Shown here: piece by piece, positions 3 to 60,513 of the stretch | Layout of the letters: every line of letters begins with the position of its first letter | Position numbering within the stretch: position 1 is the stretch's first letter | NCBI RefSeq assembly: GCF_009296185.1 | Contig: NZ_WBJR01000005.1 | Span: 124,001-188,000, forward strand | Direction of reading: 5' to 3' | Origin: Hydrogenovibrio sp. JE_KL2 | GTDB taxonomy: Bacteria; Pseudomonadota; Gammaproteobacteria; Thiomicrospirales; Thiomicrospiraceae | DNA length: 64,000 nucleotides | The notes under the pieces: generated by a model | The model's input: only the letters and a program-made list of their open reading frames with translations | What the model was told of the DNA's origin: nothing | Databases searched by the model: none | Program-made: the position numbers and the translations under genes

Positions 3-1478
3 AAAGCGCGTTGGCAATTGGCACGCGGTGTCAGCCTAATGGGATTGGTCGTGGCAGTTTTCTTAGGAATCTCGCTGTTTTTCGGTTGGATTTCATTAGA
101 CGGTAGCGAACGCTGGACCATTACGTCGCCTGCCAGTTTGCTTGTTTTGGGGCTGGTAAGTTTTATCGGCTTTATCAATGTCGGTTATTCCCGTGTTTAT
201 ATGTCGGGAAACACCGAAGAGGAAAAACGCTATTTGAGATGGCTGTTGGTGACACTTGGCAGTGTATTGACGGTGGTTATCACCAACCATATGTTGGTTT
301 TGGTTGCCGCTTGGATCGCCATCAGCTTCAGTCTGCATAGATTATTGGTGTTTTTTCCAAATCGCCAAAGAGCGGCATTGGCTGCACACAAGAAGTTTAT
401 CTTTGCCAGAGTGGCGGAAGCCTTTTTATTAGCAGCTATTTTGATTCTTTACTATCAGCACGGTACCTGGTTTATCAGCGATATCCGCGAACAGTGGCTG
501 CACAACCCTGCGCTGAGCCAAGCCGATAAGGTGGCGGCATTCATGTTGGCTGCGGCGGCATTGGTTAAGTGTGCGCAATTGCCATTGCATGGTTGGTTGA
601 TTCAAGTGGTTGAAGCACCAACACCAGTTTCCGCGTTGCTGCATGCCGGGATTATTAACCTGGGTGGTTACCTGTTGATTATCTTCGCACCGCTGATTAT
701 GGCTTCGGATGCCGCACAGTGGTTGTTGCTGATTGTCGGTGGGATTACCACGGTATTGGCGGCATTAATCATGATGACGCGTGCTTCGATCAAGGTTAGA
801 TTGGCCTGGTCGACCATGTCGCAAATGGGACTGATGCTGGTTGAGTGTGGTCTAGGCTTATTTGAGTTGGCGTTACTGCATTTGATTGCCCACTCATGCT
901 ACAAGGCCTACGCTTTCTTGAATTCCGGTTCGGAAGTGGATTCCAGCCTAAAACGCAGATTGTCTTTGTCTGAAACACCAAGCCTAAAAGAGTGGATTGG
1001 TGCAGCATTGGCATCTTTTGTATTGGTCTATGGTTTTGTCGCCTTGGCTGGCTTGTCAGGTCCTTACAGCCCATGGTTATTGTTGGGGGTTGCCTTGACC
1101 TTGTTGATTGCTGAGCGTAACGGGAAGCACAAAATCGTTTCTTTTCTCGATATGTTCTCGCTGGCAGCGGCACTGCTATTTATTTACTTCATTCAAAAAT
1201 CTGGCGTTGGATTCATTTTACCGCCGATGGAAGCCAGTCTTGGTTGGGTAGGAGACCTGTGGATCAGTCTGCTGATTGTTTTTTTCGTATCAGGTTATCT
1301 ACTGGTTCGCTATCAAGCCGATAGCCCTTCGGTCATTAAGTTTAGACGTGCGCTTTATGCCGGGTTCTATCTTGACGAGTGGGTGACTCGAATGAACTTA
1401 AGACTTTACCCGACTCGTTTGCCGATGAGAGTCCAGCCTAAGAAGCTGCAAATTCCGAAAGAGGAGTTATATCAATGA
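3..1478 (+). CDS. dabB: DabB, membrane subunit of DAB inorganic carbon pump (5' partial)
   Basis: Proton-conducting membrane partner of DabA in the DAB complex, which couples the cation gradient to CO2/bicarbonate accumulation in the cytoplasm. The frame is open to the left edge, so the true start is upstream; the first in-window starts are TTG at 18 and ATG at 39. About 486 residues are visible, somewhat shorter than family members as I know them. The protein is strongly hydrophobic with about a dozen predicted spans and carries a NuoL/MrpA-type core (proton-conducting transporter family), with the block PLHGWL followed by APTPVSALLHAG around residues 190-210. The stop overlaps the dabA start in an ATGA, indicating translational coupling. 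NuoL-like proteins are easily confused, but the DabA partner settles the call. Confidence 0.92.
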   Translation, partial: KARWQLARGVSLMGLVVAVFLGISLFFGWISLDGSERWTITSPASLLVLGLVSFIGFINVGYSRVYMSGNTEEEKRYLRWLLVTLGSVLTVVITNHMLVLVAAWIAISFSLHRLLVFFPNRQRAALAAHKKFIFARVAEAFLLAAILILYYQHGTWFISDIREQWLHNPALSQADKVAAFMLAAAALVKCAQLPLHGWLIQVVEAPTPVSALLHAGIINLGGYLLIIFAPLIMASDAAQWLLLIVGGITTVLAALIMMTRASIKVRLAWSTMSQMGLMLVECGLGLFELALLHLIAHSCYKAYAFLNSGSEVDSSLKRRLSLSETPSLKEWIGAALASFVLVYGFVALAGLSGPYSPWLLLGVALTLLIAERNGKHKIVSFLDMFSLAAALLFIYFIQKSGVGFILPPMEASLGWVGDLWISLLIVFFVSGYLLVRYQADSPSVIKFRRALYAGFYLDEWVTRMNLRLYPTRLPMRVQPKKLQIPKEELYQ

Positions 1479-3934
1479 TGCGTTCAATACGAAAATCGAA
1501 AGCGGATGCGAAGACGATTTTGGCACAACCCGTTGAGTCTCATTTGTCTGACAATCAAAAACAAGCGGTGATGAAGGCTTGCGAGCTGATCGCGCCGACA
1601 TGGCCGCTGGATGAGTTGATTGCCGTTAACCCTTGGTGGGAAATGCGCGACATGCCCTTTACCAAGGTATCGGCAAAGGTCAGTGCGTTGAGAAAAGCGC
1701 AATGCTTGATGCCTAAGTCCTATTTTCAGGAAGTTTGGATGGAAACTTTGTTGCCGGATCATTTAGAACAGGCGGCACAGGATTTAGGCAAAGACTTTTC
1801 GGTTGAAACCCTAGAGCGTTATTTGATCGAAGATGACGAACGTTCGCACTGGCACAATATCAGTGACTTGGTTGACAGTGGCCGTGACAGAAAATACAAA
1901 ATGGCTTGGCGTGATGAAATTACGCATCAGGTCAGTCAGTTCTGTGCCGACTTTTTCCGTTTCAAAGAGAATGAAGGCTGCTATGGTAGAACCTATAGCG
2001 GGCTGTATTCAGAGTGGTTGGGGACTACCCGTCAAGACATGGGAATAGAAATCCTTATGGCGGAAGATGGTTTGACCCAGCACTTTTTAGATTTGCCGGA
2101 AGAACCAGAAACACTATTGGCAACGGCTTTGGTTGAGTTGCGCGTGTCGGATGACGTCGTCACCGACTATATGCAAGCCTTGTTGATGGATGTAAACGGT
2201 TGGGCGTCTTGGGTTGCCTATTTGCGCTGGCAAGACCGTCTCAGCGGTTATGACAACCAGTTGATGATTGAGTTCCTGGCGATTCGCGTTGCTTGGGAGC
2301 TGGTCTTGTGGCGCCATCAACGTGATAGGGATCGCAGTGTTTTCAATGAATTGAAAGTCATGTGGCTACACCAGATGAACATTCTTCCAGAGTTGATCAG
2401 AATGCATGAAGTGGCTCAGGAGAAGTTGTGGGTTTGGCAACGCGCCAGTGAAATTGCCTATCAGACCAATGTCAGCCAACAGCTGAAACATTCGTCGGAT
2501 AGAGCGGAGTCTGAAACACCTTCAGAAGCTCAAACGGTTTTACAGGCGGCGTTCTGTATTGATGTGCGTTCGGAAGTTATCCGTAGAGCGTTGGAGAGCC
2601 AGGATGCCCGCATTGAAACCATCGGGGTGGCAGGGTTCTTCGGCTTGCCGATTGAGTACCACCCGGTTGGGACGGATGTGTCTCGTCCACAATTACCAGG
2701 ATTGTTGAAGTCCGGCATCAAGGTTTCACCATTGCTGCCTGAGCTGACCAAACAAGACGCCAGCGCCAAGCTTAACAAAAAAGCGCGTTGGATTGAATGG
2801 GGCAATGCTGCGCCGGCAACTTTCAGTATGGTTGAGGCAACCGGCTTGATGTATGCCTTCAAACTGTTGCGAAATAGTTTGTTCCCGCATGACTACGAGC
2901 ATCCGGTCAACCATTTACCGACGTCTGACAGTTTTGAGTTGACCCAAGATGAAGCTGAGCTTTCAAATGAGCAAAAAGCTGATTTGGCGGCAGGCATTTT
3001 GACCGCAATGGGCTTGGATCGTCATTTTGCCGAAACGGTGCTTTTGGTCGGTCATGGCAGTAGCAGTTGCAACAACCCTCATGCTGCTGGGCTTGATTGC
3101 GGTGCTTGTGGTGGTCAGACTGGCGAAATCAATGTTCGCGTATTGGCTTTCCTGCTTAATGACAGTGCGGTACGTGAGACCTTGAAGAAAAAAGGGATTG
3201 TGATTCCTGACAACACGCGCTTCATTGCTGCGATGCATAACACCACAACGGATGAATTCACGTCATTCGGTTCGGAAAAAGTGAGTGAAACCGTTAAGAA
3301 ATGGTTGTCTCAAGCGACGGTGTTGGCAAGGCAGGAGCGCGCGATTCGTTTGGGGTTGTCGCATCTTGAGCAAAACGAAGTCCATGCGCGCATCAAACGA
3401 CGTGCCAAAGACTGGTCTCAAGTGAGACCGGAATGGGGTCTTTCCAATAACGCCGCCTTTATCGTTGCCCCAAGACATCGTACCCGACATGTGAACTTTG
3501 AAGGGCGAAGCTTTTTGCATGATTATGACTGGCAGCAGGATAAGGATTTGTCTTTGCTGACACAAATCATGACCGCACCTATGGTGGTAGCGAACTGGAT
3601 CAACCTTCAGTACTACGCTTCGGTTTGCGATAACTTGGTTTATGGTAGCGGTAATAAGGTATTGCACAACGTTGTGGATGGCTGTATTGGTGTTTTCGAA
3701 GGAAATGGTGGCGACTTGAGAATCGGTTTGCCGCTTCAATCCTTGCACAACGGAAACACTTGGATGCACGAACCTCTGCGTTTGAGCGTTTATATTGATG
3801 CACCATTGGAAGCGATTGCCGAGGTGGCAGCAAACAATGAGGTGGTCCGTCAACTGATCGATAACGAATGGCTTTACTGCTTCTGTTGGGATCGTGACGG
3901 TTCTGTCGAAAGGTTCTTAAGCTCGAAAGCTTAA
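1475..3934 (+). CDS. dabA: DabA, zinc-binding subunit of inorganic carbon pump (UPF0753/DUF2309)
   Basis: Cytoplasmic, carbonic-anhydrase-like subunit of the DAB complex, thought to hydrate CO2 vectorially when bound to DabB. The 819 residues match the family's usual size. The predicted zinc site is visible as Cys361 and Asp363 in CIDVRSE, His527 in VGHGSSS and Cys542 in LDCGACGG; the His-Cys spacing of 15 equals that of the H524/C539 pair known from Halothiobacillus DabA. The start at 1475 lies in the ATGA overlap with dabB; a second ATG follows at 1478. A strong terminator follows 12 bases after the stop, so dabB-dabA probably forms the end of a transcript. The gene is intact, with all four metal-site residues present. 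Confidence 0.95.
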   Translation: MMRSIRKSKADAKTILAQPVESHLSDNQKQAVMKACELIAPTWPLDELIAVNPWWEMRDMPFTKVSAKVSALRKAQCLMPKSYFQEVWMETLLPDHLEQAAQDLGKDFSVETLERYLIEDDERSHWHNISDLVDSGRDRKYKMAWRDEITHQVSQFCADFFRFKENEGCYGRTYSGLYSEWLGTTRQDMGIEILMAEDGLTQHFLDLPEEPETLLATALVELRVSDDVVTDYMQALLMDVNGWASWVAYLRWQDRLSGYDNQLMIEFLAIRVAWELVLWRHQRDRDRSVFNELKVMWLHQMNILPELIRMHEVAQEKLWVWQRASEIAYQTNVSQQLKHSSDRAESETPSEAQTVLQAAFCIDVRSEVIRRALESQDARIETIGVAGFFGLPIEYHPVGTDVSRPQLPGLLKSGIKVSPLLPELTKQDASAKLNKKARWIEWGNAAPATFSMVEATGLMYAFKLLRNSLFPHDYEHPVNHLPTSDSFELTQDEAELSNEQKADLAAGILTAMGLDRHFAETVLLVGHGSSSCNNPHAAGLDCGACGGQTGEINVRVLAFLLNDSAVRETLKKKGIVIPDNTRFIAAMHNTTTDEFTSFGSEKVSETVKKWLSQATVLARQERAIRLGLSHLEQNEVHARIKRRAKDWSQVRPEWGLSNNAAFIVAPRHRTRHVNFEGRSFLHDYDWQQDKDLSLLTQIMTAPMVVANWINLQYYASVCDNLVYGSGNKVLHNVVDGCIGVFEGNGGDLRIGLPLQSLHNGNTWMHEPLRLSVYIDAPLEAIAEVAANNEVVRQLIDNEWLYCFCWDRDGSVERFLSSKA

Positions 3935-3946
3935 GGCTGGTCTATG

Positions 3947-3980
3947 ACTAGAAGGGCGCCTGCTCTTCTAGTTTTCTTTT
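3947..3980 (+). terminator. Rho-independent terminator of dabBA
   Basis: An 11-bp stem (3947-3957 with 3962-3972, one G-U pair) around a GCCT loop is followed by a T-rich run, TTTTCTTTT. It lies just after the dabA stop. Confidence 0.85.
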
Positions 3981-4096
3981 CTATTCTTAAAACGATCAGT
4001 TGTCAGCGTTTTGCGCTGCACATCATTTTATGGAATTCATTCATTGTGAATCATAGGGCTAAAACAAGCCAGTAATACCAGCAGGTAACACAAGCA

Positions 4097-4115
4097 ACCC
4101 AACCTGGCAGATTTT
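4097..4115 (-). repeat. Dispersed repeat R, copy 1 (left arm of inverted pair)
   Basis: Matches the 19-base word AAAATCTGCCAGGTTGGGG on the minus strand at 18 of 19 positions; only the last G differs. It pairs with copy 2 to form a hairpin between convergent dabA and cheW. Confidence 0.9.
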
Positions 4116-4128
4116 GGAGATGCAATGA

Positions 4129-4147
4129 AAAATCTACCAGGTTGGGG
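4129..4147 (+). repeat. Dispersed repeat R, copy 2 (right arm of inverted pair)
   Basis: Plus-strand copy with one mismatch (CTACC in place of CTGCC). With copy 1 it gives an 18-bp stem with one C-A mismatch and a 13-base loop (4116-4128). It ends 3 bases past the stop of the leftward cheW gene, where a terminator for that gene would be expected. Confidence 0.9.
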
Positions 4148-4150
4148 TGG

Positions 4151-4723
4151 TTATGCTTGTGCAAGGTTTGGCGTTTCCTCGGTGAACGCCTCTAAATAGT
4201 TAAAAATCCCTTGTCCTAAAAGCGCGTCGACATTCAGGACGATGACCATCAGGTCTTCATGATCCTGTTTGTGCAGGTTGGCGACGCCCTGTATATATAG
4301 CTCATTGATGCCTTCCGATCCTTGAAAAGAAGGCACGCGCTGCAAGGTTGTCATATTGATGTTTTCCACATCACTGACACCATCTACCACCAAGCCAACG
4401 GTTTTGTAGTTTCCCGCTTCATCCTGTTCCATCGACATTCTGGTGATAATGACGACGGTCGTTTCATCATAGGTGGCCTTGCCTATCTGAAAACGGTTCC
4501 GCAGGTCAATTATCGGTACGATGGCGCCACGAATGTTGATGACGCCCTTGATGAAATTAGGCATCTCCGGCAATAGGGTGGTTTTTTCCCAGCCTCGGAT
4601 TTCCTGCACCCTGAGAATGTCCAATCCATAGAGTTCATTACCGAGAATGAAGGTTAAGAACTGGATATGAGAGGGTGAGTTCTCTTCAGTGATTTGGTTG
4701 TCTAAGTTATGCATTGTGTCCAT
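4151..4723 (-). CDS. cheW: CheW-like chemotaxis coupling protein
   Basis: Adaptor that links chemoreceptors to the CheA kinase in the cytoplasm. A single CheW domain fills about residues 20-165, with the characteristic GVINIRGAIVPIIDLR segment. I chose the ATG at 4723 (190 residues) over an in-frame ATG at 4738. It overlaps the receptor's TAA as TAATG and has a GGGGAG ribosome site 7 bases upstream, inside the last receptor codons. It therefore forms a two-gene unit with the upstream receptor gene, suggesting this coupler serves that receptor. No CheA, CheR or flagellar genes are present in the window. The downstream inverted repeat pair may end the transcript. Confidence 0.9.
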   Translation of the reverse strand: MDTMHNLDNQITEENSPSHIQFLTFILGNELYGLDILRVQEIRGWEKTTLLPEMPNFIKGVINIRGAIVPIIDLRNRFQIGKATYDETTVVIITRMSMEQDEAGNYKTVGLVVDGVSDVENINMTTLQRVPSFQGSEGINELYIQGVANLHKQDHEDLMVIVLNVDALLGQGIFNYLEAFTEETPNLAQA

Positions 4724-6567
4724 TAGAATTCTCCCCATTCATCACTGTTGGTTGGTGCGCTGGCCGAAGGTGCTTGCTTAGCAATCGCTTTGACCGGAGC
4801 TGCTGGTTTTGCGTCTGCTTTTTTTGGCAAACGGGGCGCATGCTCAATTTCGACACCGGTTCTGAAAAACGACATATCATGACTCAATTGGTTGGCCTGA
4901 TCACTCATACTTTCTGCTGCGGCAGAAGTTTCTTCTACCAAAGCGGCATTTTGCTGAGTCACTTCGTCGATTTGAGAAATCGCCTGGTGTACTTGGCTGA
5001 TACCGGTTGCCTGCTCGGAAGATGCCTGTGCAATGTGCCCGACCATTTGTGTGATGGATTCAATGGCAGCATTGATGTTGCCCAACATCTCACCTGATTC
5101 GCTTGCTAGAGTTGAACCTTGTTTCACTCTGTCCGAGGTTTCATCAATCAATTTTTTGATGTCCTTAGCGGCCTCAGCAGACTTTTGTGCCAATGAGCGA
5201 ACTTCGCCGGCTACCACCGCAAACCCGCGACCATGCTCGCCAGCTCTAGCCGCTTCAACAGCTGCGTTAAGTGCCAATAGGTTGGTTTGGAAAGCGATAC
5301 CGTCAATCAAGGTGACGATTTCAGCAATCTTATGGCTCGATTCTTCAATGGCATTCATGGCATCAATGGTCATGCTCATGACTTCAGTACCTTCGTTCGC
5401 TTTTTTCTGAGCTTCAGAAGACACTTTGGAGGCATTTTGCGCATTTTCGGTGTTTGCTTGCACCGCAGAGTTCATTTGATCCATGGTGGCACTGGTTTCC
5501 TCAAGTGCTGCCGCTTGTTGCTGTACACGCTCACTCAAATCAAGCGCACCTTGTTTAACTTCATCCGAAGCATCAGAAACAAACTGTGAAGAGCTGATCG
5601 CACGTACAATTACATCCTGAAGTTTTTCGGACATGTCTTGAATGCTAGAAGTCAGAGATTCAATCTGCGGTCTAAACATGCTGACTTGTCTGTCATCAAG
5701 ATGTTGCTTCATACGAGCGGTTAAATCACCTTCAGCAAAGTTTTTCAATACATTTCCGGCATCATCAATAACGTTCTTAAGTAATAGCGTGTTTTCGTTT
5801 TTGCTTACGTCTACCGCGTATTTGATGACTCTGACTGGCTTGTCGTTATTATCAAAAATCGGGTTGTAACTCGCTTCTAACCAAATATCGTCGCCCTGTC
5901 TGGTAATACGCTGAAACGTTCCTGATTTATACTGTCCAGCTTTAAGATCTTGCCAAAATTTTCTATATTCATTACTTTCAGCATAATCCGGTTTAACGAA
6001 CAGTCTGTGATGTTTTCCTTGGATTTCATTCAATTGATAGCCCATTGCAGACATAAGGTTATCGTTGGCATTAATGATGTTTCCGTCCAAATCAAACTCA
6101 ATCACCGCCATCACTCTGTTGATGGCATCAATTTGACCCTGGTTGCTGATTTCCTGTTGTACTTTATCCGTCACATCCGAAGCGACTTTTACAACTTTAT
6201 AGGCTTTGCCTTGTTCATCAAATAAAGGCGTATAAGACGCTTCAAGCCAGATTTCTTTGCCGTTTTTATCCAAACGTTTAAATCTGCCGGAAACAAATCG
6301 ACCTTCTTTAAGGGTGCGCCAGAATTTTTGGTAGTCCGGGTGATTGCTTTCTTCTGCACTCACAAACATACGGTGATGTCGGCCAACTAAATCTGCCGCT
6401 TGGTACCCCATAGCCTGCAAGAAATTTTCATTCGCTTTCAGGATGTTGCCATCAATATCAAACTCAATCATGGCTTGAGAACGGTTAATGGCATCAATTA
6501 ATGAGTTTTGTTCAAATATGGTTGATTTTGCATCGCTTATTTGATCTTTGTATTTTTGGCAGAACAT
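4723..6567 (-). CDS. Cytoplasmic chemoreceptor with two PAS domains (BdlA-like)
   Basis: Methyl-accepting chemotaxis protein of 614 residues without any membrane span, so a soluble sensor. Two similar PAS domains occupy about residues 22-135 and 143-255; each has an HHR-M/L-F motif (64-68 and 186-190), as in the Pseudomonas biofilm-dispersal receptor BdlA. The C-terminal half is the receptor signalling domain, with the conserved hairpin tip at about 420-460 (IDGIAFQTNLLALNAAVEAA). The last five residues, EWGEF, resemble the NWETF-type tail that docks the CheR methyltransferase. The PAS pair suggests a redox, oxygen or metabolic signal, but the ligand cannot be read from sequence. An AGAGG site lies about 9 bases before the start. 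Confidence 0.88.
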   Translation of the reverse strand: MFCQKYKDQISDAKSTIFEQNSLIDAINRSQAMIEFDIDGNILKANENFLQAMGYQAADLVGRHHRMFVSAEESNHPDYQKFWRTLKEGRFVSGRFKRLDKNGKEIWLEASYTPLFDEQGKAYKVVKVASDVTDKVQQEISNQGQIDAINRVMAVIEFDLDGNIINANDNLMSAMGYQLNEIQGKHHRLFVKPDYAESNEYRKFWQDLKAGQYKSGTFQRITRQGDDIWLEASYNPIFDNNDKPVRVIKYAVDVSKNENTLLLKNVIDDAGNVLKNFAEGDLTARMKQHLDDRQVSMFRPQIESLTSSIQDMSEKLQDVIVRAISSSQFVSDASDEVKQGALDLSERVQQQAAALEETSATMDQMNSAVQANTENAQNASKVSSEAQKKANEGTEVMSMTIDAMNAIEESSHKIAEIVTLIDGIAFQTNLLALNAAVEAARAGEHGRGFAVVAGEVRSLAQKSAEAAKDIKKLIDETSDRVKQGSTLASESGEMLGNINAAIESITQMVGHIAQASSEQATGISQVHQAISQIDEVTQQNAALVEETSAAAESMSDQANQLSHDMSFFRTGVEIEHAPRLPKKADAKPAAPVKAIAKQAPSASAPTNSDEWGEF

Positions 6568-19291: not shown

Positions 19292-19310
19292 AAAATCTGC
19301 CAGGTTGGGG
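19292..19310 (+). repeat. Dispersed repeat R, copy 3
   Basis: Exact 19-base copy, intergenic, ending 3 bases past the stop codon of the leftward DUF2971 gene, the same distance as copy 2 from cheW. It is preceded by TTGA. Confidence 0.95.
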
Positions 19311-24097: not shown

Positions 24098-24116
24098 AAA
24101 ATCTGCCAGGTTGGGG
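24098..24116 (+). repeat. Dispersed repeat R, copy 4
   Basis: Exact 19-base copy in the 235-base region between the divergent metH and AEC transporter genes, about 107 bases upstream of metH. It is preceded by TTGAT and followed by T. Confidence 0.95.
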
Positions 24117-29486: not shown

Positions 29487-30497
29487 TTATTTTGTGGTGA
29501 ATGGGTAAAAACGGATGTCGCCGTTTTCGGCACCATCTTTCCCTACCCAGATGCCTGGACCCCAACCTGGCAGATTTTCAGTGGCAATGGCTTCTGGATT
29601 GCCATCGTTTTTCTGGTTGGGTAGCACCTGCTTTTGAGGCATTGGTGAGAGTTGAGTTTTACCGTCCCAATCATAAAGGCTAAAACGGTTCGGCACAGTG
29701 TTGACCGGGCCGGAGAGTAGCAAAAAACCGCGCTCTGTTGCCTGCATATCTCTAATGCCAAAACCACCAAGGTTCACCAATAATAGTTTCGACTTTTTCA
29801 CCTCAAACCGCTTGGTGCTTAATGTTAGCTTGAGAATCGGGGTTAAATTTCCGCGTAACACCGGCCCTCGAAAGCCGACGAACAGTTGGGTTTTTCCATG
29901 GTGTTGACGGACGGCGAGCCCTTCGATATCAATACCGTTTTCCTTACTGGGAATCGCTAAAAACGGTGAGAGAATCGGGTTGTTTTGGATTTCATTCAGC
30001 AAACTAATTTTGTCGATGTGCAGCGGTTTGAGTTGCTTGCTCAGCTCAACACGGAATAAAACCCTGCGATAGGGTTCATCAATCACGGGGGTGATACGTT
30101 CCATGTTCTTTTTAACACTTGAATTGGGTTTGAGTTTCTTGCGTTTCTTGGAGTGAGAGCCAAGGACATAGAGATAGGGCTTTTGCCAAGCCATGGCTTC
30201 CAGATCAAACTCCTTGATGGCTTGTTGGGTTTGATTAAGGTCGATAACGCCGCTACTGTCAGCAACATAGCCGTTAGCGGACTTGGGAAGAATTTGTATT
30301 TGTGTTCCTTCATCGGTGGCGAGCGCCAGAAACTGATCGGTTTTGACCATGCCGCTGATATTGACGGCATTGATGCCAAGTTTGCCGATAATCGACAAGG
30401 CAGGATATTGCGAAGCCGCTTGCGCTTGAACTGTCAATGCCAGCAGAGCGACGAGCAGGAGTATTGCGCGAAAGATGAATCTAATAGGGTTGAACAT
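29487..30497 (-). CDS. DUF3616 family exported protein, carries repeat R
   Basis: A 336-residue protein with a signal peptide ending QAQA-AS, starting at 30497 where an AGGAAG site lies 8 bases upstream. The DUF3616 signature is visible: FDLEAMAW, NGIDIEGLAVR, LFVGFRGPVLRGN and NLGGFGIRDM, arranged like a beta-propeller. Function unknown; family members are often periplasmic. Repeat R copy 5 encodes residues 307-313 (ENLPGWG) near the C-terminus, the same peptide reading as in fmt. The segment lies between two otherwise plausible propeller strands. Confidence 0.82.
   Translation of the reverse strand: MFNPIRFIFRAILLLVALLALTVQAQAASQYPALSIIGKLGINAVNISGMVKTDQFLALATDEGTQIQILPKSANGYVADSSGVIDLNQTQQAIKEFDLEAMAWQKPYLYVLGSHSKKRKKLKPNSSVKKNMERITPVIDEPYRRVLFRVELSKQLKPLHIDKISLLNEIQNNPILSPFLAIPSKENGIDIEGLAVRQHHGKTQLFVGFRGPVLRGNLTPILKLTLSTKRFEVKKSKLLLVNLGGFGIRDMQATERGFLLLSGPVNTVPNRFSLYDWDGKTQLSPMPQKQVLPNQKNDGNPEAIATENLPGWGPGIWVGKDGAENGDIRFYPFTTK
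29560..29578 (-). repeat. Dispersed repeat R, copy 5 (inside DUF3616 gene)
   Basis: Exact 19-base copy in the coding strand of the DUF3616 gene, read as NLPGWG. It is preceded by CTG and followed by T. Confidence 0.95.
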
Positions 30498-38493: not shown

Positions 38494-38512
38494 CCCCAAC
38501 CTGGCAGATTTT
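38494..38512 (-). repeat. Dispersed repeat R, copy 6
   Basis: Exact 19-base copy between hmuV and ttcA, 43 bases after the hmuV stop. It is preceded by CTG and followed by T in its own orientation. Confidence 0.95.
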
Positions 38513-41374: not shown

Positions 41375-41393
41375 CCCCAACCTGGCAGATTTT
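41375..41393 (-). repeat. Dispersed repeat R, copy 7
   Basis: Exact 19-base copy in the 113-base gap between the methyltransferase stop and the EamA start, about 50 bases upstream of EamA. It is flanked by ATT and T in its own orientation, so it lacks the usual TGA/CTG. Confidence 0.95.
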
Positions 41394-50567: not shown

Positions 50568-51550
50568 TCAGCAGTAGCTCCGAAGATTTCGCCTACCAGG
50601 TTTCTGGCTTGGGCAAAGTCATAAGCGGCCATCGCTTTTTTGCCGGAAGGTTGGAGTTGCGTGATGCGCAATACGCCAGACCCTGCGGCAACATCAACGC
50701 CGGTTTTGGCTACTTGCACCACTTCTCCCGGCGTGAAGGTTTTACCCCAACCTGGCAGATTTTTCATGTCATCTTCGCTAAGCGCATTGGCTGTATTGGC
50801 TTGCCAAATGCGTAAGGGTTGCCCTTGATATTGGGTGAAAGCCACCGGCCACGGGTTGAACGCCTGAACTTTGCGCTGAATGAGTTCGGCATCTTGTTGC
50901 CAGTCGATTTCCGCTTCTGCCTTGTTGAGCTTTTCCGCGTAGGTGACCAGCGTTTCATCTTGCTTGATAGGATTCAATGCATTGTTTTGGATGTCTATCA
51001 GGGTTTGCATTAAAGCATCACACCCCAATTCGCTCAAACGGTCGTGAAGGGTTTGCGCGGTATCTTCAGCCGTGATCGGCGTGGTCAGAGTGGTGAGCAT
51101 ATCGCCGGTATCCAAGCCGACATCCATTTGCATGATGGTGACGCCGCTTTCGGCATCGCCACTTTCAATGGCGCGTTGAATGGGCGCAGCGCCACGCCAG
51201 CGCGGTAATAGCGAGGCATGAATGTTCAAACACCCGAAACGAGGCATGTCCAAAACGGCTTTGGGTAAGATCAGGCCATAAGCCACCACAATCATCACAT
51301 CGGCATTGAGTGCCGCCAATTCGGCTTGTGCGTCTTCTGCGCGCAGGGTTTGTGGTTGATAAACCGGTATGTCGAATTCAATCGCGGCTTGTTTGACCGG
51401 GCTGGCGGTGAGCTTTTGCCCACGACCTGCCGGACGATCCGGCTGCGTGTAGACGGCGATGACGTCATGTTCAGATGCCATTAAACGCTTAAGCGGTGCC
51501 ACGGAAAAATCCGGTGTGCCGGCAAAAACGATACGAAGAGGTTGTGTCAT
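50564..51550 (-). CDS. fmt: Methionyl-tRNA formyltransferase
   Basis: Formylates initiator Met-tRNA. A 328-residue protein; I prefer the ATG at 51550, which matches the E. coli N-terminus (RIVFAGTPDFSV), though GTG 51562 overlaps the def stop as GTGA. Catalytic segments are NIHASLLPRWRGAAPIQRAI and the Asp in DTGDML. Repeat R copy 8 lies in the C-terminal domain and encodes residues 263-269. By memory of E. coli Fmt, the loop between RIWQA and PGEVV is about a dozen residues longer here, and the repeat fills the extra part. Confidence 0.95.
   Translation of the reverse strand: MTQPLRIVFAGTPDFSVAPLKRLMASEHDVIAVYTQPDRPAGRGQKLTASPVKQAAIEFDIPVYQPQTLRAEDAQAELAALNADVMIVVAYGLILPKAVLDMPRFGCLNIHASLLPRWRGAAPIQRAIESGDAESGVTIMQMDVGLDTGDMLTTLTTPITAEDTAQTLHDRLSELGCDALMQTLIDIQNNALNPIKQDETLVTYAEKLNKAEAEIDWQQDAELIQRKVQAFNPWPVAFTQYQGQPLRIWQANTANALSEDDMKNLPGWGKTFTPGEVVQVAKTGVDVAAGSGVLRITQLQPSGKKAMAAYDFAQARNLVGEIFGATAE
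50745..50763 (-). repeat. Dispersed repeat R, copy 8 (inside fmt)
   Basis: Exact 19-base copy on the coding strand of fmt, read NLPGWG. Preceded by ATGA and followed by T. Confidence 0.95.
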
Positions 51551-52177: not shown

Positions 52178-53296
52178 ATGAATCGAACGGGTACTTATCT
52201 AAAACTGCATTTTGCCAGAGTGAAGGCCTCGCAATTGGAAGCGATTCGCAGCCGTTTCGGCTCGCTGGATAAAGCGGTTGAAGCTTCTCAGGCAGCATGG
52301 GAAAAGTCCGGAATACTCACGCCACGTCAGTTGGAGCGCCTGTTTGAAGATGAATTGCCCGAGCGCATCCAACAGGCCGAAACCTGGGCGCAGCAAGAAA
52401 ATCATCACATTCTATGCTTAGAAGATGAGGTTTATCCGTCGATGCTGGCAGAAATAGCCGATCCGCCTATTTTGCTTTATGCAATGGGCAAGGTTGAACT
52501 GCTGAGCGACCCGCAAATCGGGATTGTTGGTAGCCGCAATGCGACCAAATATGGCATCAGCATTGCCAAGGATTTTGCAGAATACTTTACCAAAGTTGGG
52601 ATGACGGTGACGAGCGGGTTGGCCAGTGGTATTGACCAAGCTGCGCATGAAGGTGCATTGCACTCCGAGCAATTTCCCGGCACGACGATTGCGGTGGTGG
52701 CAACGGGGTTGGACCGTGTCTATCCGGCATCCAACCGTGAATTGGCACATAAAATCTGCCAGGTTGGGGTGTTGGTGTCCGAGTATCCTTTGGGGACCAA
52801 GCCTTTGGCGCACCAATTTCCGGAGCGGAATCGCATCATTTCCGGGTTAAGCCTTGGGGTACTGGTGGTAGAAGCGGCGCTGAAAAGCGGCTCGCTCATC
52901 ACTGCACGTTTGGCGATGGAGCAGGGGCGGGAAGTGTTTGCGGTGCCGGGTTCCATCAATAGCCCTCATTCCAAAGGCTGCCATCAATTGATTCGCCAAG
53001 GTGCGAAGTTGGCAGAATCCGGACAGGATGTGCTGGAAGATTTGTCCGGTTTGATTGAGTTGTCGTTATCGGATGAGTTTACTTCGCAGTCATCTCCCCT
53101 GAATCAGGACAAAACGGCGGAAAAGCTTTCTGAAGACGGACTGTTGAAGTGGATAGAGTACGAACCCATCAGTCTGGATGAATTGTCGGTGCTGAGTAAG
53201 TGGCCGGTGTCGGAAATCCAAAGTCAGTTATTGATTTTGGAAGTGACAGGGCGCATCGAAGCCTTGTCGGCAGGGCGTTGGCGACGGTTAAAATAA
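52178..53296 (+). CDS. dprA: DNA processing protein DprA, carries repeat R
   Basis: Loads RecA on single-stranded DNA taken up in transformation. The 372-residue protein has the Rossmann-like core GIVGSRNATKYGISIAKDFAEYF, SGLASGIDQAAHEGAL, NRIISGLS and a C-terminal winged-helix-like domain (KWIEYEPISLDELSVLSKWP). Repeat R copy 9 covers codons 192-198 (KICQVG), within a conserved helix/strand segment (REL-AHKICQVGVLVSEYPL) where relatives also have a short loop: here the repeat adds no length. Start ATG 52178; a GGTAAAG precedes it. Confidence 0.96.
   Translation: MNRTGTYLKLHFARVKASQLEAIRSRFGSLDKAVEASQAAWEKSGILTPRQLERLFEDELPERIQQAETWAQQENHHILCLEDEVYPSMLAEIADPPILLYAMGKVELLSDPQIGIVGSRNATKYGISIAKDFAEYFTKVGMTVTSGLASGIDQAAHEGALHSEQFPGTTIAVVATGLDRVYPASNRELAHKICQVGVLVSEYPLGTKPLAHQFPERNRIISGLSLGVLVVEAALKSGSLITARLAMEQGREVFAVPGSINSPHSKGCHQLIRQGAKLAESGQDVLEDLSGLIELSLSDEFTSQSSPLNQDKTAEKLSEDGLLKWIEYEPISLDELSVLSKWPVSEIQSQLLILEVTGRIEALSAGRWRRLK
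52751..52769 (+). repeat. Dispersed repeat R, copy 9 (inside dprA)
   Basis: Exact 19-base copy on the coding strand of dprA, read KICQVG. Preceded by CAT, followed by T. Confidence 0.95.
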
Positions 53297-58731: not shown

Positions 58732-60513
58732 ATGAAGCAACAGGTAATCGAGTTACTGATTCAAGTCGTTGATACTTTAAAGCAAACAGGCGTCCTTCCG
58801 GAAGACGCACACCCGAATATTCACTTGGAAAATACCAAAGATAAATCGCATGGTGATTTCGCCACTAACTTGGCGATGATGATGACCAAGCTTGTCGGTA
58901 AACCGCCTAGAGACGTCGCTAACCTGATTATCGACGCGTTACCGGCATCCGATGTGGTGGAAAAAGTGGAAATCGCCGGACCTGGTTTCATTAACTTTTT
59001 CGTTAAGGAAGCGGCAAAATTCGATGTCGTGGCAGACGTTTTGGCAAAAGGGGATGACTTCGGTAAATGTGATGTCGGTAACGGGCGTTCGGTATTGCTG
59101 GAGTATGTTTCCGCCAACCCAACTGGGCCTTTGCATGTTGGGCATGGTCGTGGCGCGGCTTATGGCGCGAGTGTCGCCAATGTATTGTCGGAAGCTGGTT
59201 ATAACGTTTCGAGAGAATACTATGTGAATGATGCTGGACGTCAAATGGACATTCTGGCGGCATCAACTTGGTTGCGTTATTTGCAACAGGTTGGGGAGAC
59301 TTTGAAGTTTCCAAGCAACGGTTATCAGGGCGACTATATTATTGAGATTGCGCAGGAGTTGGTGCATCAGCATGGGGAAGCCTTTAAGGTGGCAGCAAGC
59401 GAGGTGTTCGATGGCGTAGCAGCTGATGAAGTCAAGGATGCGGAAGGCAATGTTGTCTCGGGTGACAAAGAAGAACATATCGATGATTTAATCATGAAAG
59501 CGAAAAACCTATTGGGTGCTGACAAATATGAAATCGTCTTCCAACAAGCTTTGACGGTTATTTTGTCTGACATTCGTGAGGACTTGGGCGAGTTCGGTGT
59601 CGAGTTCGACAACTGGTTCTCCGAGCGTTCGCTGATGGATTCTGGGGTAATCGATGCGGCATTGGAAAAATTGCAGGCCGCAGGTAAAGTCTACGAACAG
59701 AATGGCGCTTTGTGGTTTAAATCAACCGAGTATGGTGACGAGAAAGACCGCGTTGTCGTGCGTGACAACGGTTTGAAAACCTACTTTGCTTCGGACATCG
59801 CTTACCACTTTAACAAGCTTGAACGTGGGTTTGATGTGCTGATTGATATTTGGGGTTCCGATCACCATGGTTATGTGCCGCGTGTCAAAGCGGCGATGCA
59901 GGCGATGGATACCAATCCAGATGCCTTGGAAGTCTTGTTGGTTCAATTCGCGATTTTATATCGTGGTGGCGAAAAGTTAGCGATGTCCACGCGTTCCGGT
60001 CAGTTTGTGACCTTGCGCGAGTTGAGAGAAGAAGTGGGTTCGGATGCAGCGCGTTTCTTCTACGTACAGCGCAAGTCGGAGCAGCACATGGACTTCGATT
60101 TGGATTTGGCGAAATCCCAATCCAACGACAACCCGGTTTACTACATTCAATATGCTCATGCGCGTATTTGCCGTGTATTTGAGCAGGCTGAGGAAAAAGG
60201 CTATTCGGTGGTGATTGACCCCAACCTGGCAGATTTTTCATTGTTAACATCAGAGCATGAAACGGATTTGGCAACGCAGTTGGCGAAGTACCCAGAAGTG
60301 ATCGCACGTGCAGCGCAGGCTTATGAGCCGCATCAAGTCGCGTATTATTTGAAGGACTTGGCAAATGGTCTTCACTCTTACTATAACGCCTGTCAGTTCG
60401 TGGTGGAAGACGATGCATTGCGTCAATCTCGTTTTGTGCTGATCGCAGCCGTTAGGCAGGTATTGAGAAACGGTTTGAAACTGTTGGGCGTATCCGCGCC
60501 GCAAAGTATGTAA
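58732..60513 (+). CDS. argS: Arginyl-tRNA synthetase, carries repeat R
   Basis: Class I synthetase of 593 residues. The HIGH-type motif is HVGHGRG following SANPTGPL (about 125-140) and KMSKS is represented by KLAMSTRSG. Repeat R copy 10 lies antisense to the gene and encodes residues 496-502 (DPNLADF), in the region between VFEQAEEKGYSV and the conserved SEHE segment that relatives show as variable. The 258-base upstream region was not found to hold a clear promoter. The SPOR gene starts 11 bases later. Confidence 0.96.
   Translation: MKQQVIELLIQVVDTLKQTGVLPEDAHPNIHLENTKDKSHGDFATNLAMMMTKLVGKPPRDVANLIIDALPASDVVEKVEIAGPGFINFFVKEAAKFDVVADVLAKGDDFGKCDVGNGRSVLLEYVSANPTGPLHVGHGRGAAYGASVANVLSEAGYNVSREYYVNDAGRQMDILAASTWLRYLQQVGETLKFPSNGYQGDYIIEIAQELVHQHGEAFKVAASEVFDGVAADEVKDAEGNVVSGDKEEHIDDLIMKAKNLLGADKYEIVFQQALTVILSDIREDLGEFGVEFDNWFSERSLMDSGVIDAALEKLQAAGKVYEQNGALWFKSTEYGDEKDRVVVRDNGLKTYFASDIAYHFNKLERGFDVLIDIWGSDHHGYVPRVKAAMQAMDTNPDALEVLLVQFAILYRGGEKLAMSTRSGQFVTLRELREEVGSDAARFFYVQRKSEQHMDFDLDLAKSQSNDNPVYYIQYAHARICRVFEQAEEKGYSVVIDPNLADFSLLTSEHETDLATQLAKYPEVIARAAQAYEPHQVAYYLKDLANGLHSYYNACQFVVEDDALRQSRFVLIAAVRQVLRNGLKLLGVSAPQSM
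60219..60237 (-). repeat. Dispersed repeat R, copy 10 (inside argS)
   Basis: Exact 19-base copy, antisense to argS, which is read PNLADF on the coding strand. It is preceded by ATGA and followed by T in its own orientation. Confidence 0.95.

Follow-up and report, generated by a model that had tools for sequence, protein, structure and literature searches.

Between dabA, which encodes an inorganic carbon transporter subunit, and a convergent cheW-like gene of Hydrogenovibrio sp. JE_KL2, two copies of a repeated word face each other just past the cheW stop codon. This raises the question whether such an inverted pair acts as a terminator, and what kind of word it is made of. We analyzed the locus within a stretch of 64,000 nucleotides (contig NZ_WBJR01000005.1, positions 124,001 to 188,000; hereafter the window), together with the rest of the genome and its relatives. 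The features at the locus are as follows.

1475..3934, plus strand: dabA, inorganic carbon transporter subunit (Pfam DabA, E 2e-246)
3946..3973, plus strand: intrinsic terminator of dabA, ordinary type, 12-bp stem with T-tail
4068..4082, minus strand: weak separate hairpin with two G-U pairs, then TTGTTTT; missing at the sister species' locus
4083..4097, minus strand: weakly T-rich stretch TTGCTTGT (5 T in 8), 3' of the hairpin stem in the cheW direction
4088..4156, minus strand: hairpin of the cheW strand extended by outer pairing, -34.8 kcal/mol
4098..4115, plus strand: first arm of the stem, CCCAACCTGGCAGATTTT, a C-variant word (copy 1) with its T-tract pointing to the loop
4116..4128: loop of 13 bases; its sequence has changed in the sister species, where the arms are kept
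4129..4146, minus strand: second arm of the stem, CCCAACCTGGTAGATTTT, a T-variant word (copy 2)
4151..4738, minus strand: CheW-like gene (NCBIfam), its stop adjoining the inverted pair

The dabA gene adjoins a gene for a DabB-like membrane protein. The top NCBIfam match of the CheW-like gene is CheW PRK10612 (E 1e-34, 119 bits), at a score that does not reach the model cut-off of 260. The original prediction, that two copies face each other across 13 bases right past cheW, agrees with these coordinates, as 3-4 bases separate the stop codon (4153-4151, minus strand) from the pair. It also described an 18-bp stem with one C-A mismatch, which is correct for RNA of the plus (dabA) strand (-26.0 kcal/mol, z -6.1), but in RNA of the cheW (minus) strand a U-G pair forms there and 18 pairs follow each other uninterrupted (-28.7 kcal/mol, z -7.3). 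Rather than the tolerated defect that it was taken for, the difference between the arms lies at position 11 of the word (4108 and 4136 in the window), where most of the variation among copies is found (Y; C in 69%, T in 30%). In the sister genome both arms of the dabA/cheW pair are kept with the C and the T swapped, and the loop and flanks have changed. The proposed assignment to cheW fits the data as well: dabA is terminated separately by its own upstream hairpin and T-tail, as predicted, and the fold is strongest on the cheW strand. The hairpin at 4098-4146 would thus serve cheW, whose strand has the unbroken stem.

The 18-base word, CCCAACCTGGYAGATTTT, occurs 407 times (211 and 196 copies on the two strands) in the 2.44-Mb genome (15 contigs), when matches with up to two mismatches are counted; the reversed-pattern control gives 0 and 1. 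An alignment of the 138 copies in 864 kb gives (C)CCCAACCTGGYAGATTTT; 72 of the copies are exact, 50 have one mismatch and 16 have two. Copies with three or four mismatches are few in the same 864 kb, so that the word forms a sharp set. Ten copies lie in the window, and besides the pair at dabA/cheW these are single words.

19292..19309, minus strand: single word between tandem genes
24098..24115, minus strand: single word between divergent genes
29561..29578, plus strand: single word inside a predicted gene
38495..38512, plus strand: single word between tandem genes
41376..41393, plus strand: single word between tandem genes
50746..50763, plus strand: single word inside a predicted gene
52751..52768, minus strand: single word inside a predicted gene
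60220..60237, plus strand: single word inside a predicted gene

The density of words is highest in convergent spacers (2.9 per kb), followed by tandem (0.49) and divergent spacers (0.33) and genes (0.06), and single words alone still reach 1.44 per kb between convergent genes. About one third of the copies (44 of 137) are single words inside genes, on either strand. The words are spaced more evenly than random (CV 0.80 vs 0.97, p 0.0125), with four gaps below 1 kb where 15 are expected, and show no strand polarity along the chromosome, both strands being used equally (211/196). In single words (n = 130, no close partner), positions +25 to +28 are rich in A and T (AT 0.66-0.76, z up to 5.1). 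The centre of this stretch is 11 bases, or one helical turn, past the centre of the word's TTTT (+14 to +17); a second, weaker AT stretch is present at +37 to +39. That the AT stretch is a side product of inverted pairing could be ruled out, because it persists in words that are unpaired.

The original prediction had called for a genome-wide search for further inverted pairs and their position relative to stop codons. Defining a close pair by 2-32 bases between the 12-base cores, we found 32 inverted pairs in this genome, and 35 and 21 in its two sister species, where about one per genome is expected. They fall into two classes, with the T-tracts pointing inward to the loop, as at dabA/cheW, or outward: 13 T-inward and 19 T-outward pairs here, 15 and 20, and 8 and 13 in the sisters (approximately 0.4-0.5 expected per class). 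The totals of the three genomes, 52 T-outward vs 36 T-inward, show a mild lean only, and same-direction (direct) close pairs number 0, 0 and 0. Based on gene calls from our own dicodon model, which assigns 84% of the sequence as coding and misses small genes, 46 of the 75 pairs whose surroundings could be read are in convergent spacers, 28 in tandem spacers and one in a divergent spacer, and none is within a gene. From the nearer stop codon to the start of the core the median distance is 14 bases for T-inward and 15 bases for T-outward pairs. Loop lengths cluster at 4 bases in T-inward (11 of 35) and 15 bases in T-outward pairs (14 of 40), which could result from RNA stability or from keeping the phased flanks of the words. 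In the JE_KL2 genome 11 of the 13 T-inward pairs consist of a C word facing a T word. A functional meaning of such mixed pairs was considered, as in 30 of 44 the nearer gene is the one whose strand has the U-G (p 0.02), but dropped; we make no claim for them since C and T are swapped at the dabA/cheW locus of the sister species.

Whether the pairs are terminators, as originally proposed, depends on what follows the stem. T-outward stems bear the word's own TTTT, and at least 5 T in 8 follow the stem at 39 of 49 gene ends. After T-inward stems this is the case at only 5 of 52 gene ends, where background positions give 16%, and the class as a whole is thus not made of ordinary intrinsic terminators. 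The dabA/cheW pair is among these five, although borderline (TTGCTTGT). A hairpin-plus-T terminator within 160 bases is present at 35 of 79 convergent ends that lack the word (39 of 400 random positions). Another ordinary terminator was found at 8 of 52 T-inward ends (p 6e-4) and at 11 of 49 T-outward ends (p 0.014); as the scanner accepts loops of 3-8 bases only, most word pairs are themselves not counted, and these numbers tell whether a further terminator is present. Since ordinary terminators are seldom found at paired ends, both classes of pairs appear to stand in for them. The terminator reading therefore holds insofar as the pairs lie past stop codons and replace ordinary terminators, but it lacks the T-tail in the T-inward class.

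Like Rho-independent terminators, the pairs combine a strong hairpin with a location that is mostly 5-30 bases 3' of the stop, and unlike these, T-inward pairs, including the one at 4098-4146, are without a T-tail; only T-outward pairs show the standard anatomy. T-outward pairs would resemble two-way intrinsic terminators, in which the words provide both the A-tail and the T-tail. T-inward pairs most likely represent 3'-end hairpins that would protect the transcript after Rho-dependent or inefficient termination. It is conceivable, if unlikely, that they are nonetheless true intrinsic terminators that function without a T-tail or act via their AT-rich inner stem: they are placed past stops like T-outward pairs, ordinary terminators are equally depleted around them, their stems reach -25 to -39 kcal/mol, and on the cheW strand the stem of the dabA/cheW pair is followed by 5 T in 8. 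The standard mechanism, however, needs the T enrichment that is missing from the class. We consider the pair at 4098-4146 a 3'-end hairpin, for which the term terminator in its strict sense is doubtful given the T-inward orientation; the weak T-rich stretch past it may contribute some intrinsic termination of cheW.

We aligned 174 kb with the closest sister genome (89.4% identity), the sister stretches having been picked around pairs, so that single words are few. All 34 words of either genome are at matching places, three of them needing gaps by choice of alignment alone. At the 17 fixed positions of the word, paired words show 3 changes in 442 positions and the five single words none in 85, compared to changes at 12-21% of the flank positions. 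The two genomes disagree at the C/T position of 11 of 26 paired words, which makes this a site that changes faster than the flanks (p 0.01). A chance palindrome, as one might assume for a single locus, is practically inconceivable with 32 pairs against about one expected and with arms conserved in the sister species. Hundreds of interspersed copies and palindromic pairs at gene ends would also be expected of a mobile palindromic repeat of the REP type, or of another chromosome-organizing DNA-binding site. The unit, however, is a non-palindromic single word without a fixed hairpin, no insertion or empty site is seen among the 34 words compared between two species, the dialects described below differ by point changes, and the chromosome is without strand bias, all of which makes such an element improbable.

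More difficult to set apart is an element acting purely at the level of the transcript. The word family would then have spread in the capacity of half-terminators or of 3'-end elements of mRNAs, uptake would not be involved, and single words would be remnants or act alone. The clustering of single words at gene ends (1.44 per kb in convergent spacers vs 0.06 per kb in genes) and the replacement of ordinary terminators by pairs are in line with this. Against it argue the single words within genes on either strand, the helix-phased AT stretch that is kept in single words, the fixed positions that are conserved alike in single (only five) and paired words, and the even spacing along the genome. 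We regard a purely transcript-level element as rather unlikely. The 18-base word is most likely a self-recognition word of the DNA-uptake type. As both orientations of the word are abundant, two words could land face to face and form a strong RNA hairpin, and pairs just past stop codons would then be retained as transcript 3' ends. Such an uptake-signal-like word reused in 3'-end hairpins is in our judgement the probable explanation; position and conservation are directly observed, and the function is what we infer from them.

The word differs between species of the genus. One sister species has the same 18-base word (371 copies), and the other uses a one-base dialect with CCCAG, CCCAGCCTGGYAGATTTT, in 342 copies. 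The remaining nine of the 12 genomes of the genus contain at most one copy of the long word each. Six of these nine use the palindromic CCAGGCCTGG instead, with 20-37 sites per 100 kb (100 kb sampled in each of the six genomes; G007, G008 and G010 were too poorly sampled), flanked by AT stretches on both sides and in the form AAAAnnnCCAGGCCTGGnnnTTTT in two genomes. No CCAGGCCTGG-type palindromes were seen in the examined stretches of the genomes with the long word. The dialects share CCTGG and, three bases further on, an AT stretch. Among 63 genomes of the family, the 3' part of the long word is abundant in just this genome and the two sisters. At gene ends, the 10-base CCAGGCCTGG is often embedded in longer perfect palindromes that bear A- and T-tails, and in the relative G011 one such palindrome is located directly 3' of dabA.

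Known uptake words offer close parallels. The uptake signal sequences (USS) of Pasteurellaceae likewise occur in hundreds of conserved copies and in dialects (PMC1852404, PMC12616744), have AT-rich stretches one helical turn downstream in Haemophilus (PMC1852404), and form inverted pairs at gene ends in both orientations, with same-direction neighbours being rare (PMC1852404, PMC12616744). The USS is of unrelated sequence, and has 9 conserved bases and 1000 or more copies, compared to 18 bases and approximately 400 copies here; T-inward pairs are here nearly as frequent as T-outward pairs. The DNA uptake sequences (DUS) of Neisseriaceae share with the present word the species dialects around a common core (CTG there, CCTGG here) and the many inverted pairs in every dialect-bearing genome (PMC3630211). 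Haemophilus and Neisseria both put inverted pairs of their uptake words to use as terminators. The pair orientation that supplies a tail is far commoner in Neisseria and mildly so in Pasteurellaceae (PMC1852404), and our 36 T-inward vs 52 T-outward pairs differ in this from Neisseria. With one word per 6 kb, the density is lower than that of most uptake words, which usually number a thousand or more per genome. In every sequence feature tested the word resembles an uptake signal, apart from its lower copy number and the receptor, for which no candidate was found. This bears out the original suggestion of an uptake-like word through sequence features, namely copy number, conservation, dialects and phased flanks.

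The genome encodes ComEC (TIGR00361, 340 bits, cut-off 190), an MshE/PilB-type ATPase, two tandem PilT/PilU-like ATPases (named on the basis of size and arrangement) and a TadA-type ATPase. Proteins of these kinds are widespread without being specific for competence, and do not prove it. A receptor of the ComP family (PF16732), as in Neisseriaceae, had no match in the genus, but the model matched no control either, making this a weak test; the GspH family (PF12019) gave no match in the genus as well. In a search by pilin N-termini, the differences between the species at least partly reflect a type II secretion operon in some relatives. A GspE-like ATPase of approximately 490 amino acids is found in G001, G005-G009 and G011 and is absent from G000, G002, G003, G004 and G010; in G001 and G005 it is adjoined by a run of pseudopilins.

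In the literature examined, uptake words are described for two bacterial families only, Pasteurellaceae and Neisseriaceae. No others are named in a 2026 survey that covered the terminators of thousands of genomes (PMC13020248), and our search for uptake words in Hydrogenovibrio, Thiomicrospira and Piscirickettsiaceae returned nothing relevant, with subscription papers mostly outside its reach. On the sequence data we lean towards a third independent uptake-word system outside these families, in sulphur-oxidising Hydrogenovibrio-like bacteria, which would comprise a word of 18 bases, three or more dialects in one genus (one of them palindromic) and two kinds of 3'-end hairpin, one without a T-tail. 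If true, finding such a system in free-living autotrophs as well would indicate that self-recognition words arise repeatedly. The genus would allow the change of dialect, from CCAGGCCTGG to CCCAG/CCCAA-CCTGG, to be traced species by species, and the receptor could be found by its co-variation with the dialect. The tail-less pairs also raise the question whether hairpins of uptake words end transcription or protect transcript ends.

The largest gap without a word spans 31 kb and has 39% GC, vs 44% for its contig; an AT-rich gap fits the expectation if foreign DNA is without the word. Word-free stretches of approximately 30 kb are found at G000:C1:20992-51841 (39% GC) and 694928-723950 (41%; contig 44%), and both are candidates for acquired DNA. 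Finally, two IMG/VR viral contigs (L259 and L260) carry one exact long word each, and are possibly prophages of word-bearing hosts.
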